From Serratia quinivorans (GTDB taxonomy: Bacteria; Pseudomonadota; Gammaproteobacteria; Enterobacterales; Enterobacteriaceae): a DNA stretch of 64,000 bases. The notes below the pieces were generated by a model. The model had not been told where the DNA came from, ran no database searches, and saw only the letters and a list, made by a program, of their open reading frames with translations. The stretch's first letter is position 1; every line of letters starts with the position of its first letter. This document shows positions 12,697-31,451 of the stretch, piece after piece. The stretch lies in assembly GCF_946227985.1 (NCBI RefSeq), contig NZ_CAMKGL010000001.1, forward strand, positions 124,001-188,000. The letters are read 5' to 3'. The translations under genes were made by a program, and so were the position numbers.

Positions 12697-12912
12697 GCGA
12701 GTTCCTCTCGGTAAGCGGTCTATCGGTTTTAATGCTAAATCAGCCGGTTGTCCAATGGTGCAATGCTTTCGCTATCGGAATGCGAGACGCCGCTCAAAAT
12801 AAAAAAATAGCGGGGCAACTAGGAAATAGTCGCGGGTAACTGCGGCAAAATCGTTGTTAGCTCTGGGGTGCGGATGCCCCAACAAAAAAATCTGAACGCT
12901 AAAGGAGAATTC

Positions 12913-13809
12913 ATGCGCTCACGTCACGCTTTGCTTATAACTTTGTTATCCCTGGGAATATCTCAGACTGCCTGGTCCTCTACCGACGGTGGTCATGCCA
13001 ACAGCAACGCCAATAGCCGCGAAGTGGCCAGCGCGCTGGGCGGCCTGAAGAACAAAACCTATAGCCTGGATCAGGCTCCGAAGATCCGCGTAGCCAGCTT
13101 CAATATTGCCGCCGGTAAAGTCAGTGACATGACCGCCATCGCCAAGGCGATCAAGGCGATGAACGTCGACGTGGTGGCGCTGCAGGAAGTGGACAAGCTG
13201 ACCGGCCGCAGCGGCAAGCTGGATCAGGCTGATGAACTGGCCAAGCTGACCGGTATGCACGTGGTCTTTGGCCGCGCGATTGACTTTGACGGCGGGGAAT
13301 ATGGCCTGGCGTTCCTGTCAAAATATCCGCTGCATGACAGCAAAATCTACCCGCTGCCCTCCGGCCAGCGAGAACAGCGCATTGCCTTCAGTGCCCAGAC
13401 CGACGTGCCTGAGTTCCCGGCGCCGATTACGCTGATCAACACCCATCTGGACACCAAGGAAGATCCGGCCATGCGTCTGGAACAGGTGCGTGAATTGAAC
13501 GATCGCACCATTGAGATGCGCGGTATCAAGCTGTTGTTTGGCGATATGAACGACGTTCCGGGCAGCGTCACCTGGAGCGAACTCAGCCGTTACTGGAACG
13601 ACATCATGCCCACCGCGCAAGATGGCCGCAGTTGGCCGGCGGAAAATGCCGAAATCAAGGTCGACTACATCTTTAGCGGCAATGCCCAACGCTGGCATCT
13701 GGACAGCCTGACGGTGCCGAACGCCAGCGGCGACTGGAACGGTATTCACTGGCCGGCAGTCAGCGATCACCTGCCGGTGGTTGCCGAGCTGCGCTTGACC
13801 GAGCAGTAG
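12913..13809 (+). CDS. Secreted endonuclease/exonuclease/phosphatase-family protein
   Basis: A 298-residue protein with a signal peptide (MRSRHALLITLLSLGISQTA, cleavage near the WSS) and an EEP fold of the DNase I/sphingomyelinase superfamily. The catalytic elements are VASFNIA, ALQEVD with the metal-binding glutamate, INTHLD, FGDMND and the terminal SDHLPV with the catalytic Asp-His pair. The ATG at 12913 follows AAGGAG and was preferred to an upstream in-frame ATG at 12868. The substrate, whether nucleic acid, phospholipid or phosphoester, cannot be read from the sequence. It was probably part of the locus before the island next to it arrived. Confidence 0.85.
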   Translation: MRSRHALLITLLSLGISQTAWSSTDGGHANSNANSREVASALGGLKNKTYSLDQAPKIRVASFNIAAGKVSDMTAIAKAIKAMNVDVVALQEVDKLTGRSGKLDQADELAKLTGMHVVFGRAIDFDGGEYGLAFLSKYPLHDSKIYPLPSGQREQRIAFSAQTDVPEFPAPITLINTHLDTKEDPAMRLEQVRELNDRTIEMRGIKLLFGDMNDVPGSVTWSELSRYWNDIMPTAQDGRSWPAENAEIKVDYIFSGNAQRWHLDSLTVPNASGDWNGIHWPAVSDHLPVVAELRLTEQ

Positions 13810-13834
13810 TTTAATCAAAAGCAGTATTGTCAGC

Positions 13835-13909
13835 TTAAACGGGTGAGATCCGCGCCAGTCGTTCGATGGCGGCGCGGATTTCACCGGGTGTCAGGGCCGA
13901 AAAGCCTAT
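13835..13909 (-). pseudogene. 3' remnant of a MocR-type regulator/aminotransferase gene
   Basis: On the minus strand a short frame reads GFSALTPGEIRAAIERLARI, followed by three residues and a stop codon at 13835-13837. This matches the usual C-terminal helix of MocR/GntR-aminotransferase proteins, in which a glutamate-rich turn precedes EIRAAIERLA. The frame is closed by an in-frame stop at 13910-13912, and no upstream part of such a gene is present. It looks like the left edge of a deletion made when the bacteriocin island was acquired. Confidence 0.55.
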
Positions 13910-13981
13910 TCACATCGAAGACGTTTCACATGGTAAAGGCCAAACCCAAACCTATTGGCATACTGTCTTGAAATCCGAATC

Positions 13982-14020
13982 TGGACATTTCCGCATCAAT
14001 GAATAATAATTATCATTACC
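13982..14020 (+). promoter_or_regulatory. Immunity-gene promoter overlapped by a Fur-like box
   Basis: TGGACA (13982-13987) and TAATAA (14004-14009) are separated by 16 bp and can serve as -35 and -10. Bases 14002-14020 (AATAATAATTATCATTACC) agree with the 19-bp Fur consensus GATAATGATAATCATTATC at 15 positions and cover the -10. AT-richness could give a chance match. Confidence 0.5.
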
Positions 14021-14042
14021 AACAAGAAAACAGGAAGTTACA

Positions 14043-14570
14043 ATGAATAGTGACGCGTTAGTATGGAAAAAATTCGCGCAAATAGGGTTAATCGGCGTTG
14101 CGCCGTTAATTATTCTATTCACTTTTTTCAAACTATCTCCTGATAATTCGATTTTTATTTATTTTTCTGACCTGACTAAAGATTTTAGTGCAAACATTTC
14201 GACGACTAATTTGGCACTCACAAAACCTCTTGCATTTTATTGCAAAGTAGCACCTTTTTTTTCTCTGTACTTTGCAGCTAAACACATAAATCAAGTGAAG
14301 TCCAAACCAAATATAAAAAACATGGCTTCGATGGTTTTTTATTCAATCGGTTTTGTTGCTGTATACTTAATCATGTTTTATATTTTTGTGGTAGGCCAGT
14401 TTGACATGAATAATGGAAATCGCCTGTTGAAGGCTACTGCATCAAATGATTATACAATCATTCTCTATTATATTATTGTTTTTGCCGGGATGTACACGCT
14501 AACATTTATACTCTTGATGTTAGTGAGGCTTTTGTATTCCGAGTTTAGAAAATCCATAATATATAAATAG
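14043..14570 (+). CDS. Colicin A-type immunity protein (inner membrane)
   Basis: A 175-residue AT-rich gene on the strand opposite the colicin-like gene and convergent with it, which is the arrangement of pore-forming colicins and their immunity genes. The product has four hydrophobic segments at about residues 13-29, 62-78, 97-120 and 138-163, joined by charged loops. That fits the A-type immunity family (4 helices, about 178 residues) rather than the shorter 3-helix E1 type. The ATG follows AGGAAG at a good distance. It presumably blocks the pore domain in the inner membrane. The assignment rests on topology and context, since sequence identity in this family is low. Confidence 0.75.
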   Translation: MNSDALVWKKFAQIGLIGVAPLIILFTFFKLSPDNSIFIYFSDLTKDFSANISTTNLALTKPLAFYCKVAPFFSLYFAAKHINQVKSKPNIKNMASMVFYSIGFVAVYLIMFYIFVVGQFDMNNGNRLLKATASNDYTIILYYIIVFAGMYTLTFILLMLVRLLYSEFRKSIIYK

Positions 14571-14600
14571 AGCCTTATGGGAAAAGGCTCTATTTATTTT
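14565..14600. terminator. Bidirectional terminator between immunity and colicin genes
   Basis: AAATAGAGCCTT (14565-14576) pairs perfectly with AAGGCTCTATTT (14584-14595), followed by ATTTT. The stem includes the immunity stop codon and lies 19 bp from the end of the convergent colicin gene. Confidence 0.85.
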
Positions 14601-14613
14601 ACGTGACTGCCTA

Positions 14614-15687
14614 TTAATGTGCTGTGCGGACAACTTCGTTGTTGAACTTTTCAACCAGCCCTGCATCAATATAAGATGCACCATATGCAATCAGCACTGA
14701 GGCAGAAATTGCCAAGGCTGAAGTAGCAAGCACTGATAATCCAAGCAGTGACAATACGCCGGTCACCATAGCCATTGCGACGGCACTGGCAACACCACTG
14801 AGTACCATGGCCTCGACTTCATATACCAACGGTCCCCAGTTACCGGTATTATAACCCTCTGTGGCTTTTTCACGGATCTTATCAATCTTCATGACAATAT
14901 CTGTCACCTTGAAGAATTTACTAAACTGACCAAGCCGATTTGCCATATCTTGAGCATTAACATTTTTCATTGCATTAATAAGTGCTTGCTTATCTCCTTG
15001 TTTCACTTTCATTGAAGGATTTGACATCACTTTGTTAAATGACGCTATCGCATCATTATAACTTCGGATGTTTCTACCTTGAAAGTTCCGAATATTATTA
15101 GCAATTGCGTCAGCATAACTTTTATATTGTCGGCCAGCATGATTGCTAATTTTCTCACCTGCATCAGCGATAACTCCGCTAGCTTCCATGAGAAAATTCC
15201 TTTCATCTTTCACGTACGCAGTGACTTCCTTTTTGGCCGTATCTCTGCGAGATGCCCAGGAAGGATTATGGTAATTTTTGGGTGCGACGACTTCTTCAAG
15301 ACCTGTAATACTATCATCTTTTTGGACGTAAACTAAAAAAACAGAATCCTTACCGACGCGAGCATAATACCGTCGAGGTTTCCTACTATCGATTTCTACT
15401 ATTCCGTCATAAACAATATTTGGATGGCCAGGAATAGATTTCAGATATTTCTTTCCTGAGGAACTGCTATTATTTCCACCTTTGTTACCATCACCAGTAT
15501 CGCCACCCCAATGAACTCCGCTACCAGAATCAAGAGCATGAACTCCCTCGAAGGTCATCGTCACACCGTTAATCGTGTCTGTTAGTGTTCCGCCGTGCCC
15601 CACGTTAGGACCACCGCTAAGGCCAGTAGAACCTCCCTTCACACCACCGGTTGGGCCACGACTATCTTTCCCGTCTCCACCACTCAT
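14614..15687 (-). CDS. Compact pore-forming colicin-like bacteriocin
   Basis: This 357-residue protein has three parts. Residues 1-80 are Gly/Ser-rich, begin MSGGDG like the E-group nuclease colicins, and contain SGSGVHWGGDTGDGNKGG (54-71), resembling their OmpF-binding segment. Residues 81-160 form a short middle region with weak resemblance to the colicin N receptor domain. Residues 165-357 are a colicin pore domain: NFQGRNIRSYNDAIASFNKV, DMANRLGQFSKFFKV, REKATEGYNTGNWGPL and a hydrophobic helical hairpin at 294-338. It should kill by depolarising the inner membrane. It is smaller than colicin N (387 residues). No classical TolB or TonB box is obvious, and no lysis gene follows. AAGGAG precedes the ATG. 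Confidence 0.88.
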   Translation of the reverse strand: MSGGDGKDSRGPTGGVKGGSTGLSGGPNVGHGGTLTDTINGVTMTFEGVHALDSGSGVHWGGDTGDGNKGGNNSSSSGKKYLKSIPGHPNIVYDGIVEIDSRKPRRYYARVGKDSVFLVYVQKDDSITGLEEVVAPKNYHNPSWASRRDTAKKEVTAYVKDERNFLMEASGVIADAGEKISNHAGRQYKSYADAIANNIRNFQGRNIRSYNDAIASFNKVMSNPSMKVKQGDKQALINAMKNVNAQDMANRLGQFSKFFKVTDIVMKIDKIREKATEGYNTGNWGPLVYEVEAMVLSGVASAVAMAMVTGVLSLLGLSVLATSALAISASVLIAYGASYIDAGLVEKFNNEVVRTAH

Positions 15688-15706
15688 ATAAAGCTCCTTT
15701 TATATT

Positions 15707-15724
15707 CCTTAACGGTTATTAAGG
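15707..15724. promoter_or_regulatory. Palindrome in the colicin leader, possible operator
   Basis: CCTTAA and TTAAGG flank a six-base centre, 20-37 bp before the colicin start codon. No LexA box of the form CTGT-N8-ACAG is present between 15688 and 15802. What binds the palindrome, if anything, is unknown. Confidence 0.3.
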
Positions 15725-15801
15725 TAGGGGCATTATTGGTTAGTTCGAATGTGGAATAAATCACTTCGCGTTGTTTTACGGCTGACACAACAGACTAATA
15801 A

Positions 15802-16002
15802 GTTTATGTCACTTATTGCGATGGTATTGGCTGCAACGGCTCCACCAAAGGGGCGTATAAACTGGCGCTACAAGGGTTTCGGGTGAAAGAGTTGATTGGC
15901 GGTTTGGACTTCTGGCTTCGCGATGGCCATCCATTGGCCACCGGTGAACAGCCGGGCTCGCTGCAGGGAAGTGCTATTGGCGAAGACTGCGGCTGCGCCT
16001 GA
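15802..16002 (+). pseudogene. C-terminal remnant of a rhodanese-domain gene
   Basis: An open frame without a start reads VYVTYCDGIGCNGSTKGAYK and continues with LALQGFRVKELIGGLDFWLR, ending CGCA before the TGA at 16000-16002. The active-site loop C-D-G-I-G-C-N-G-S-T-K and the ELIGGLDFW helix are typical of the last 65 residues of rhodanese/sulfurtransferase domains. Upstream the frame is stopped by TAA codons at 15796-15801, where the AT-rich island begins. The 5' half of the gene is absent, so this is the right edge of the island insertion. It ends 5 bp before the flk stop. Confidence 0.75.
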
Positions 16003-16006
16003 GGGA

Positions 16007-17035
16007 TTAAAACACCAGCGCCAATACCAGAGCCAGCACCAGAATAAACAGGATAAACGCCACGGCCGGTTTGCTCAGCGCTTTTTGCAGCGGTTGGGGC
16101 AGGGCAGCAATCAGTGGGTTGAGCAACGGCTGCGGTTCGGCATGGCTGCCGGACTGCGGCTGTGCCGGACCGGTCTTTTCCAAACGGCGCGCAAACAGCT
16201 GGTTGATCAGGTCGCTCATCTGCGGATGGGTCAGCGGTGCGCCGGCATTGCAGTGAAAACGTGACTGACAGTAGTCATTCAACTGTTGCTGCTCCTGCGG
16301 ATCCGCAGGATGCTTAAGTGCGGCTAACAGGTTGTTCAGCGTCGGTGCGGTTTGCGGGCTCAGCGCTACCTTCACCTGCAAAAACTGATTCAGCAGTTGG
16401 AAATGGCGAGCGGGCAGCGGATCGTTGGTTTTGACCCCGCTGAGATCAAACAGCGTCTGCCAAATTTTGACCGGCGATTCGCCGGTGGCGGCGCTCAGCT
16501 TGGTCACCTGCAGTTGCAGGCTTTGATGTTCTGCAGGCAGCAGCGGGCGATCGCTGGTGGTGGTTTGTTGCGGGAGCGGGATGGTCAGGCTGCCGGTCTG
16601 CAACAGGTTTAATACCTGCTGCAACTGCGGGTGGCTCAATTGACTCAGCACCGTATGGCCAAACTGCTGGCGAATAAAGTCGCTGACGGCCTGGCGGTTA
16701 TTGCCCTGCGGCAGCAGATCGGTGAGTTGTTGCAACAATTGGCGGTTGGCATGGCTCTGCTGCACCTGCGCCAGGCGGTTTTGCAACAGTTGCTCGGCCG
16801 GTTGGAAATGGCGTGCCAGTAGCTCACTGTTATTGTCTGTTTGCAGATCATGACGCAGCGTGACCCAAATCTCTGCGGACTTGGCCGGGCTGAGCGCCAT
16901 GATCTTGACGATCAGCTTCTCCAGCGTCGTGCGTTGTGCCGGGGAGAGCGGACTACCGTCAGTGGTTGTGGTTTTGTCCGGGCTAGGGGAACGATCGCTG
17001 GCGATCGGGGTGCCCGGTCCACTCAAAGGTTGCAT
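16007..17035 (-). CDS. flk: Flagella biosynthesis regulator Flk
   Basis: Flk is a membrane-anchored cytoplasmic protein that in Salmonella couples hook and ring completion to substrate switching and late flagellar gene expression. The 342-residue product begins MQPLSGPGTP, close to the E. coli start MIQPISGPPP. It shares GNNRQAVSDFIRQQFG near residue 115, DRPLLPAEHQSLQLQVTKLS near 170, and LLNPLIAALP before a single C-terminal membrane helix (AFILFILVLALVLALVF) that serves as tail anchor. Glutamine content is high. No flagellar genes are nearby. Confidence 0.9.
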   Translation of the reverse strand: MQPLSGPGTPIASDRSPSPDKTTTTDGSPLSPAQRTTLEKLIVKIMALSPAKSAEIWVTLRHDLQTDNNSELLARHFQPAEQLLQNRLAQVQQSHANRQLLQQLTDLLPQGNNRQAVSDFIRQQFGHTVLSQLSHPQLQQVLNLLQTGSLTIPLPQQTTTSDRPLLPAEHQSLQLQVTKLSAATGESPVKIWQTLFDLSGVKTNDPLPARHFQLLNQFLQVKVALSPQTAPTLNNLLAALKHPADPQEQQQLNDYCQSRFHCNAGAPLTHPQMSDLINQLFARRLEKTGPAQPQSGSHAEPQPLLNPLIAALPQPLQKALSKPAVAFILFILVLALVLALVF

Positions 17036-31432: not shown

Positions 31433-31451
31433 GATAATTATTCTCATTAAC
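31433..31451 (-). promoter_or_regulatory. Fur-like box at the start of the DMT exporter gene
   Basis: Read on the minus strand, GTTAATGAGAATAATTATC matches GATAATGATAATCATTATC at 16 of 19 positions. It directly precedes the ATG and contains the candidate ribosome-binding GAGAA, so Fur binding could block transcription through the start region. Confidence 0.6.

Follow-up and report, generated by a model that had tools for sequence, protein, structure and literature searches.

The window analysed here, a stretch of 64,000 nucleotides from Serratia quinivorans (contig NZ_CAMKGL010000001.1, positions 124,001 to 188,000), carries two convergent genes which we interpret with high confidence as a horizontally acquired chromosomal cassette for a colicin-like bacteriocin, that is, a pore-forming protein of 357 amino acids presumably imported by way of the Tol system, together with its immunity gene. 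The putative bacteriocin gene is the open reading frame (ORF) at 14614–15687 on the minus strand (ATG start, calculated mass 38.0 kDa), and the predicted immunity gene is the ORF at 14043–14570 on the plus strand (175 amino acids, ATG start, Colicin_im family). The two are separated by a gap of 43 bp and are both present exactly where an earlier sequence-only reading of this DNA had placed them. To judge from the sequence, the pair is intact and belongs to a known kind of system; its modules form an unusual mosaic, and its control signals are atypical.

The C-terminal part of the 357-residue protein (residues 158–357, positions 14617–15216, minus strand) is assigned as a colicin A-type pore-forming domain by Pfam, by matches to sequences of the PDB, by pairwise identity and by its hairpin. 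The sequence-only reading had recognized a colicin pore domain at about residues 165–357, and in fact PF01024 (Colicin) covers residues 165–350 (E 2.7e-13, 50.6 bits, cut-off 23.4). A phmmer search against PDB sequences returns colicin A (1col, E 2.4e-61), colicin N (1a87, 4.4e-58), S4 (3few, 2.4e-54) and colicin B (1rh1, 1.2e-47), with E1, Ia, Ib and pyocin S5 as remoter matches. The same reading had named colicin N as the closest relative. This part did not hold, as in local alignments colicin A (101/198 identical residues, 51.0%) and colicin N (95/191, 49.7%) are level and the colicin encoded by plasmid pE36_2 of S. marcescens is the nearest of the proteins compared (137/200, 68.5%, residues 158–357); an S4-like Escherichia coli colicin (97/196) and a colicin from a viral contig (100/192) were aligned in the same way. 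The hydrophobic helical hairpin, expected at residues 294–338, was found at residues 293–340 (14668–14811, minus strand) as a stretch of 48 residues devoid of D, E, K and R, the corresponding stretches of colicins A and N being 49 and 48 residues long. At the level of sequence the domain therefore has the long hydrophobic hairpin that marks the pore-forming colicins. Because the identity of about 50% extends over the entire domain, it presumably adopts the ten-helix fold known from colicin A.

The protein encoded by the convergent gene matches PF03857 (Colicin_im) with an E-value of 1.4e-7 (32 bits, cut-off 25.8). It shares 87 of 162 residues (53.7%) with the immunity protein of pE36_2, whereas the identity to the immunity proteins of colicin A and colicin N is 27.1% and 20.5%, respectively. 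Thus, in this comparison the closest relatives of the toxin and of the immunity protein come from one and the same plasmid, which is what a cognate pair would show. Pore-forming colicins have their membrane immunity gene next to them on the other strand, as is the case here; this orientation is typically seen with colicins that act on the plasma membrane (PMC6668396). The gene product had previously been taken for a convergent, four-helix immunity-like protein. Its family and its orientation stand, but a simple hydropathy threshold yields peaks in three regions only (residues 6–34, 93–123, and 137–166), so that the four helices rest on the family. Among 30 genomes of the same genus, the own genome included, the immunity protein matches only itself. 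Between the two genes lies a perfect 14-bp inverted repeat with a loop of 7 nucleotides (14563–14597) and with a flank that is T-rich on the plus strand and less so on the minus strand. It is a possible terminator common to both genes, although it is not among the sites reported by a simple terminator scan.

Horizontal acquisition and insertion into the chromosome are supported by gene remnants at both borders, by the low G+C content, and by the absence of the cassette from the same spot in relatives. The inserted A+T-rich segment comprises 1.9 kb (about 13907–15799) with about 40% G+C (39.6% over 13898–15815 compared to 55.6% for the window) and is delimited by the positions where the DNA similarity of relatives stops and resumes. 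The left border at 13906 coincides with the end of the match in 5 of 13 relatives (L027, L028, L029, L034, and L035), and the match resumes at the right border, 15800, also in five of the 13 (L027, L028, L030, L031, and L036) and a few bases off in others. Immediately outside these borders are found the 3′-terminal 23 codons of a MocR-type gene with GntR and aminotransferase domains (13834–13906, minus strand) and the 3′ part of a rhodanese-domain gene (15800–16002, plus strand). Both genes are intact in several relatives; the insertion took the place of most of the regulator gene and of part of the rhodanese gene, and measured against L028, 1708 bp of older content are missing. Further outward lie a gene of the endonuclease/exonuclease/phosphatase family (12868–13809, plus strand) and flk (NF007987; 16007–17035, minus strand, as the colicin gene), which occur together in the same 26 of the 30 same-genus genomes, including the own one. 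When compared by coordinates, no colicin match is located between these two genes in the other 25 genomes which have both. The suggestion that the cassette is a chromosomal acquisition next to a phosphatase-family gene and flk is therefore borne out.

Reading the ORFs of seven relatives gives the order phosphatase-family gene, MocR-type gene (reverse), rhodanese gene, and flk (reverse) in four of them (L027, L028, L029, and L034), the domain names being taken from Pfam searches on L027 and L030. The other three deviate: L030 has an extra gene for a major facilitator superfamily (MFS) transporter, L033 is devoid of the MocR gene, and L026 is devoid of both the MocR and the rhodanese gene. The spacing between the flanking genes ranges from 130 to 6238 bp among the genomes, and thus the spot is variable. 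Genomes G015 and G019 have only 130 and 211 bp there, and in genome G020 the same spot (L026) is filled by 6.2 kb with a carbamoyltransferase, a GNAT acetyltransferase, an MFS transporter, a protein weakly similar to 2-oxoglutarate oxygenases (below the cut-off), and a protein without a Pfam match. As to signs of a mobile element, no repeats joining the borders were detected (the longest repeats within 13790–16010 have 23 nucleotides or less).

By comparison with related proteins, the bacteriocin is a mosaic of three parts: the N-terminus resembles that of E colicins but has no TolB box, a central domain of about 80 residues follows, and the pore domain ends the protein. Residues 1–80 (15448–15687, minus strand), starting with MSGGDGKDSRGP, consist to 70% of G, S, N, D, T, and P and form a presumably disordered, glycine-rich translocation domain. 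This domain is common to larger bacteriocins of the same genus: 49 of 77 residues are identical in L004, 45 of 75 in L008, and likewise 45 of 75 in L005. The last of these looks like a broken remnant, namely the N-terminus of an L008-like bacteriocin whose frame ends early (L005, 1501–1851). An identity of 36/71 is found to a second bacteriocin of the source genome, a protein of 848 amino acids with the Pfam domains Cloacin, Pyocin_S, and Cytotoxic (L070, 2450–4996, minus strand), the last of which we take to be the ribosomal RNase domain of colicin E3 and cloacin. The partner of this second bacteriocin is a Cloacin immunity gene of 84 codons (L070, 2181–2435, minus strand), and the locus is situated at about 1375180–1377995 of C1.

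The core of the TolB box, the mark of the TolB-dependent group A colicins, is given as DG(S/T)GWSSE (PMC2821528). No such box is present within residues 1–110, where the best window mismatches the core at five of eight positions. In the same test colicin N has 5/8 mismatches too, colicin A and the pE36_2 colicin (DGTGWSSE) have none, and the 848-residue bacteriocin of the own genome has a single mismatch (DHSGWSSE). In colicin N, TolA is bound by strand addition from the sequence SYHITF (PMC4339652). A candidate for such a beta-strand epitope is TLTDTINGVTMTFEGVH at residues 34–50 (15538–15588, minus strand), in which VTMTF (residues 42–46) was set by eye against SYHITF, a likeness at the level of the motif only. 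Since an S4-like protein and an alveicin B-type protein have comparable stretches in their N-termini (RITITNG and HITITGG, respectively), we consider a TolA-binding strand in the 357-residue protein plausible.

The central domain (residues 80–157, 15217–15450, minus strand) is the candidate receptor- or porin-binding domain, and its relatives are mostly found in Serratia bacteriocins. At E≤1 it is present on the Serratia plasmids pE36_2, PWN146p1, and AP028481 (3 of 72,556 plasmid records), and outside of these plasmids in L004 and, from another genus, in the single locus L063. It belongs to no Pfam family, and a profile of five sequences found no PDB-sequence match at E≤0.05 (nothing below E 0.06). 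When the motif of the domain was used as a DNA pattern, one viral contig matched, with no such protein among the ORFs of at least 80 amino acids nearby. With 357 amino acids, no long coiled-coil arm, and only about 80 residues between the N-terminus and the pore domain, the protein has the compactness of colicin N.

Based on these features, we suggest that the bacteriocin, once released by the producer, would bind with its central domain to the surface of a related cell. The surface receptor would probably be a porin, as for colicin N, because the protein has no long coiled-coil arm. The glycine-rich N-terminus could then thread through this porin and present its short beta-strand epitope to the energised Tol machinery; since a TolB box is missing, the direct partner would most likely be TolA. 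The C-terminal ten-helix domain would reach the inner membrane, where the hairpin would insert and open an ion channel so that the membrane potential would collapse; this step is suggested by the identity of about 50% over the whole domain to colicins A and N, for which it is established. The producer would be shielded from the pore by the convergent 175-residue membrane protein, in keeping with the known role of this immunity family. What the sequence shows is the content of domains, the pair of genes, and the insertion with its borders. On the strength of homology this mechanism of killing is very likely, and beyond it we infer the receptor, the import route, the expression, the release, and the protection.

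Some observations weigh against a functional Tol-imported bacteriocin with a colicin N-like receptor domain. AlphaFold models are helical but of low confidence, both for the full-length protein (7 sequences, mean predicted local distance difference test score, pLDDT, of 36) and for the pore domain (12 sequences, mean pLDDT 47). A Foldseek search with the pore-domain model places 1col, 1a87, 3few, and 1rh1 on top, yet with a template modelling (TM) score of about 0.35 and a root mean square deviation of 19–20 Å, and thus the ranking reflects the sequence signal and is not evidence for the fold. To the colicin N-type receptor domains (residues 90–185 in colicin N), whose kinship had been suspected by eye for a beta-beta-alpha look, the central domain has a weak profile similarity with an hhalign probability of 33%, a score which was reached by none of 100 column shuffles and which also beats the reversed profile, but the probability depends on the alignment (33%, 33%, 5.7%, and 1.6% with four MAFFT modes), and this likeness proves nothing about the receptor. 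In addition, the colicin gene is devoid of the usual signals. There is no LexA box upstream of it (the best match has 9 of 20 mismatches), no clear promoter, and no promoter-like minus-strand site between the colicin gene and flk. No ORF for a lysis lipoprotein was found in 13800–16010 with a scan that detects those of ColA and ColN; the sole lipobox-like ORF in this region (13952–14131) does not look as if it had a signal peptide, and PF02402 gave no match above the cut-off in the whole genome. As LexA box, clear promoter, and lysis gene are all missing, the colicin gene could be poorly expressed.

These missing signals would also fit a decaying or silent acquisition, in which only the immunity gene with its own promoter still matters, by protecting against related toxins from plasmids, the pE36_2 colicin for instance. 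We regard this explanation as rather unlikely, even though a LexA match with at most five mismatches precedes all seven of the counted relatives that come from named plasmid records or viral contigs (L018, L020, L021, L022, L023, L044, and L045) and though plasmid pQC19 (L019, 3932–5129) keeps a shortened toxin ORF of 233 amino acids, barely more than the pore domain, beside a related immunity ORF. The reading frame in the window is open over its 357 codons and its ATG is preceded by AGGAG, which resembles a ribosome binding site. Moreover, flk lies 319 bp upstream on the same strand with no terminator found in between, and therefore read-through from flk into the colicin gene is possible. The missing LexA box itself is not unique to this locus, as a match with at most six mismatches is present in 17 of 33 stretches upstream of colicin-type genes and missing from 16, the window locus among them, and shuffles of each stretch reached this quality in 0–10 of 100 cases. 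All six bacteriocin 28b-like loci (L007, L009, L010, L011, L012, and L014) are without such a match in the 250 bp upstream, though bacteriocin 28b is reported to be produced (PMC13101503). The impression gained from seven loci that all relatives are SOS-controlled is ruled out by the same count. The count was made without pAlvB, for which the start motif was not found, without broken or startless ORFs, the duplicate viral locus L046, and the loci L050, L051, and L060, which repeat or closely resemble entered loci; some of the start codons were chosen by us.

The import route could differ from the one suggested above. Klebicin E, a compact pore-former of the colicin A type, is described to use OmpC and TonB through the sequence EETLTVV (PMC10906532), and the same bacteriocin as proposed here might be imported by the Ton system with residues 33–37 (GTLTD) as a weak TonB box. 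GTLTD has two mismatches in five positions to ETLTV, but by this crude measure the Tol-dependent colicin A scores equally well (ESVTV, two mismatches). Furthermore, GTLTD is not at the extreme N-terminus, and no TLT stretch is retained by the similar N-termini of L004, L005, and L008, which do keep MSGGDGKDSRGP and a later GVH, so we consider import by the Ton system unlikely. Quite improbable, too, is the combined reading of a rewired colicin, in which a TolA-direct, TolB-independent import through a single porin would go along with a receptor module that has no solved close relative and is largely private to Serratia bacteriocins, the locus being placed outside the SOS response and the immunity gene under Fur. 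Pore-forming toxins are also reported to be delivered by contact-dependent and type VI systems (PMC9558359), and a colicin-type domain could be the cargo of such a system instead of a diffusible bacteriocin. For the window protein we see hardly any chance of this, as it is complete and short, has a colicin-type N-terminus and no delivery module recognised by Pfam, and its nearest relatives look like stand-alone colicins. A pore-forming bacteriocin imported by the Tol system is the interpretation which we prefer.

The immunity gene has control signals of its own. A putative sigma70-like promoter (TGGACA-17-AATAAT) is located before it at 13982–14010 on the plus strand, in a region with seven such sites where 5.6 are expected by chance. 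Overlapping the putative −10 element is a Fur-box-like palindrome (14002–14020, minus strand) which agrees with the Fur consensus at 16 of 19 positions; when the 162-bp stretch was shuffled base by base 5000 times, this quality was never reached. A second site of this type is found in the window at 31433–31451 (3 mismatches), and shuffles of the window gave a mean of 0.00 sites of such quality. A Fur-like box at the immunity gene instead of the toxin gene would be an odd arrangement. By eye, a CRP-like site and a palindrome CCTTAA-N6-TTAAGG are seen before the ATG of the colicin gene. In another genome of the genus (G011), the locus L003 (1495–2493, minus strand) codes for a colicin A-type protein of 332 amino acids with a WSGESWGWPTTG N-terminus and a TonB-box-like ETLVV. 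Upstream of this gene, a LexA box with 3 mismatches and a Fur-like box with 4 are present, and inspection by eye of the ORFs of at least 60 amino acids revealed no immunity-like ORF.

With the whole protein as query, some colicin-type match is obtained in 12 of the 30 same-genus genomes and in 19 of 295 genomes of the family, the own genome included in both cases. Among the matches listed, none apart from the own gene extends from end to end. A group alignment searched against 84,980 species genomes yielded six loci with 44–48% identity in the best segment. A coverage of the protein of at least 80% is reached in none of 380 matching plasmid records and none of five matching phage records, and the same coverage of the inserted DNA in none of 68 matching plasmid records and none of 40 matching E. 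coli genomes (out of 5426). In viral sequences no relatives of the whole protein were found. A viral contig from IMG/VR (L044, 2470–4168) codes for a pore colicin of 370 amino acids whose start resembles that of colicin N. This colicin gene has a LexA box and a convergent Colicin_im neighbour, and the contig encodes an IstB/DnaA-type ATPase as well; the locus is perhaps a colicin cassette carried by a phage.

Few protein bacteriocins of Serratia have been characterised, and the cassette adds a chromosomal pore-former with a matched immunity gene. It also reveals a shuffling of modules among the Serratia bacteriocins, which concerns the N-terminal, the central, and the killing part. In addition, it offers a small protein for asking whether import through a single porin and without TolB, as in colicin N, works with a receptor domain that is different or has diverged strongly.

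The sequence-only reading knew of no Serratia bacteriocin of exactly this architecture, and our literature search, limited to the accessible text of open-licence papers, found no description of the 357-residue protein either. A chromosomal pore-former of Serratia is nevertheless known already: bacteriocin (marcescin) 28b of S. marcescens, a protein of 47.5 kDa (PMC13101503; PMC9558359) which is referred to as the only Serratia bacteriocin identified by 2017 (PMC5536347) and is the only one named for S. marcescens in the consulted text of a paper from 2026 (PMC13101503). Bacteriocin 28b and the window protein are both encoded on the chromosome, and the same-genus 28b-like loci likewise have no LexA match. 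In contrast, 28b has a variant of the TolB box and no immunity protein listed, and the 28b-like loci are only 26–27% identical over the matched part. The 28b-like proteins of the same-genus genomes carry a DGTNW box (N14 in Col28b; PMC2821528), and compared to these loci the window protein has neither a high identity over the whole length nor the N-terminus MPGFNYGG.

The bacteriocin had also been thought to be among the smallest pore-forming colicins. It is indeed smaller than colicin N, which has 387 amino acids and about 42 kDa and is called one of the smallest colicins (PMC7335789), but its size is not exceptional given the alveicin B type with 358 amino acids, klebicin E with 39.9 kDa (PMC10906532), and, of the colicin A type, the 332-residue protein in the genus and the 370-residue protein on the viral contig. 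Still smaller are the colicins JS (10.4 kDa) and Z (26.3 kDa), of which colicin Z is judged not to be mainly a pore-former (PMC6668396). The alveicin B type, which we know by name from plasmid pAlvB of Hafnia alvei (NC_005911) and from a reference title in PMC9457839, has a similar plan of the N-terminus. It differs by a pore domain of the colicin E1 type (21% identical), by an E1-type immunity protein, and by its location on plasmids in the named records. Its homologue in L071 has 358 amino acids when counted from MSGGDGKD and is 94.8% identical over the full length to the gene of pAlvB, which is annotated there with a longer start (376 amino acids). Klebicin E, compared by description only, resembles the window protein as a small pore-former of the colicin A type whose immunity protein is tetraspan, and is distinguished by a TonB box at residues 3–9. 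Colicin A shares the type of pore domain (51.0% identity) and an immunity protein with 27% identity; however, it is much larger (592 amino acids), has a TolB box, and binds BtuB with its central domain (PMC4339652).

Two further parallels are colicin N and the colicin of pE36_2. Colicin N is likewise compact, without a TolB core and with a convergent immunity gene, its pore domain is 49.7% identical, and its central domain is perhaps distantly related. It is reported to use one porin both as receptor and as translocator and to contact TolA directly (PMC7335789, PMC4339652). In contrast to the window locus, colicin N has a lysis gene and a LexA box, and the immunity proteins are only 20.5% identical. 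The nearest relative among the compared proteins is the pair on the S. marcescens plasmid pE36_2 (AP028508.1), annotated as 'hypothetical protein' (BEM75792.1 and BEM75793.1), which has the same convergent arrangement, the highest identities in pore domain (68.5%) and immunity protein (53.7%), and a related central domain. Unlike the cassette in the window, it is plasmid-borne and preceded by a LexA box, and its toxin of 393 amino acids starts with a colicin A-type N-terminus that includes the TolB box DGTGWSSE.

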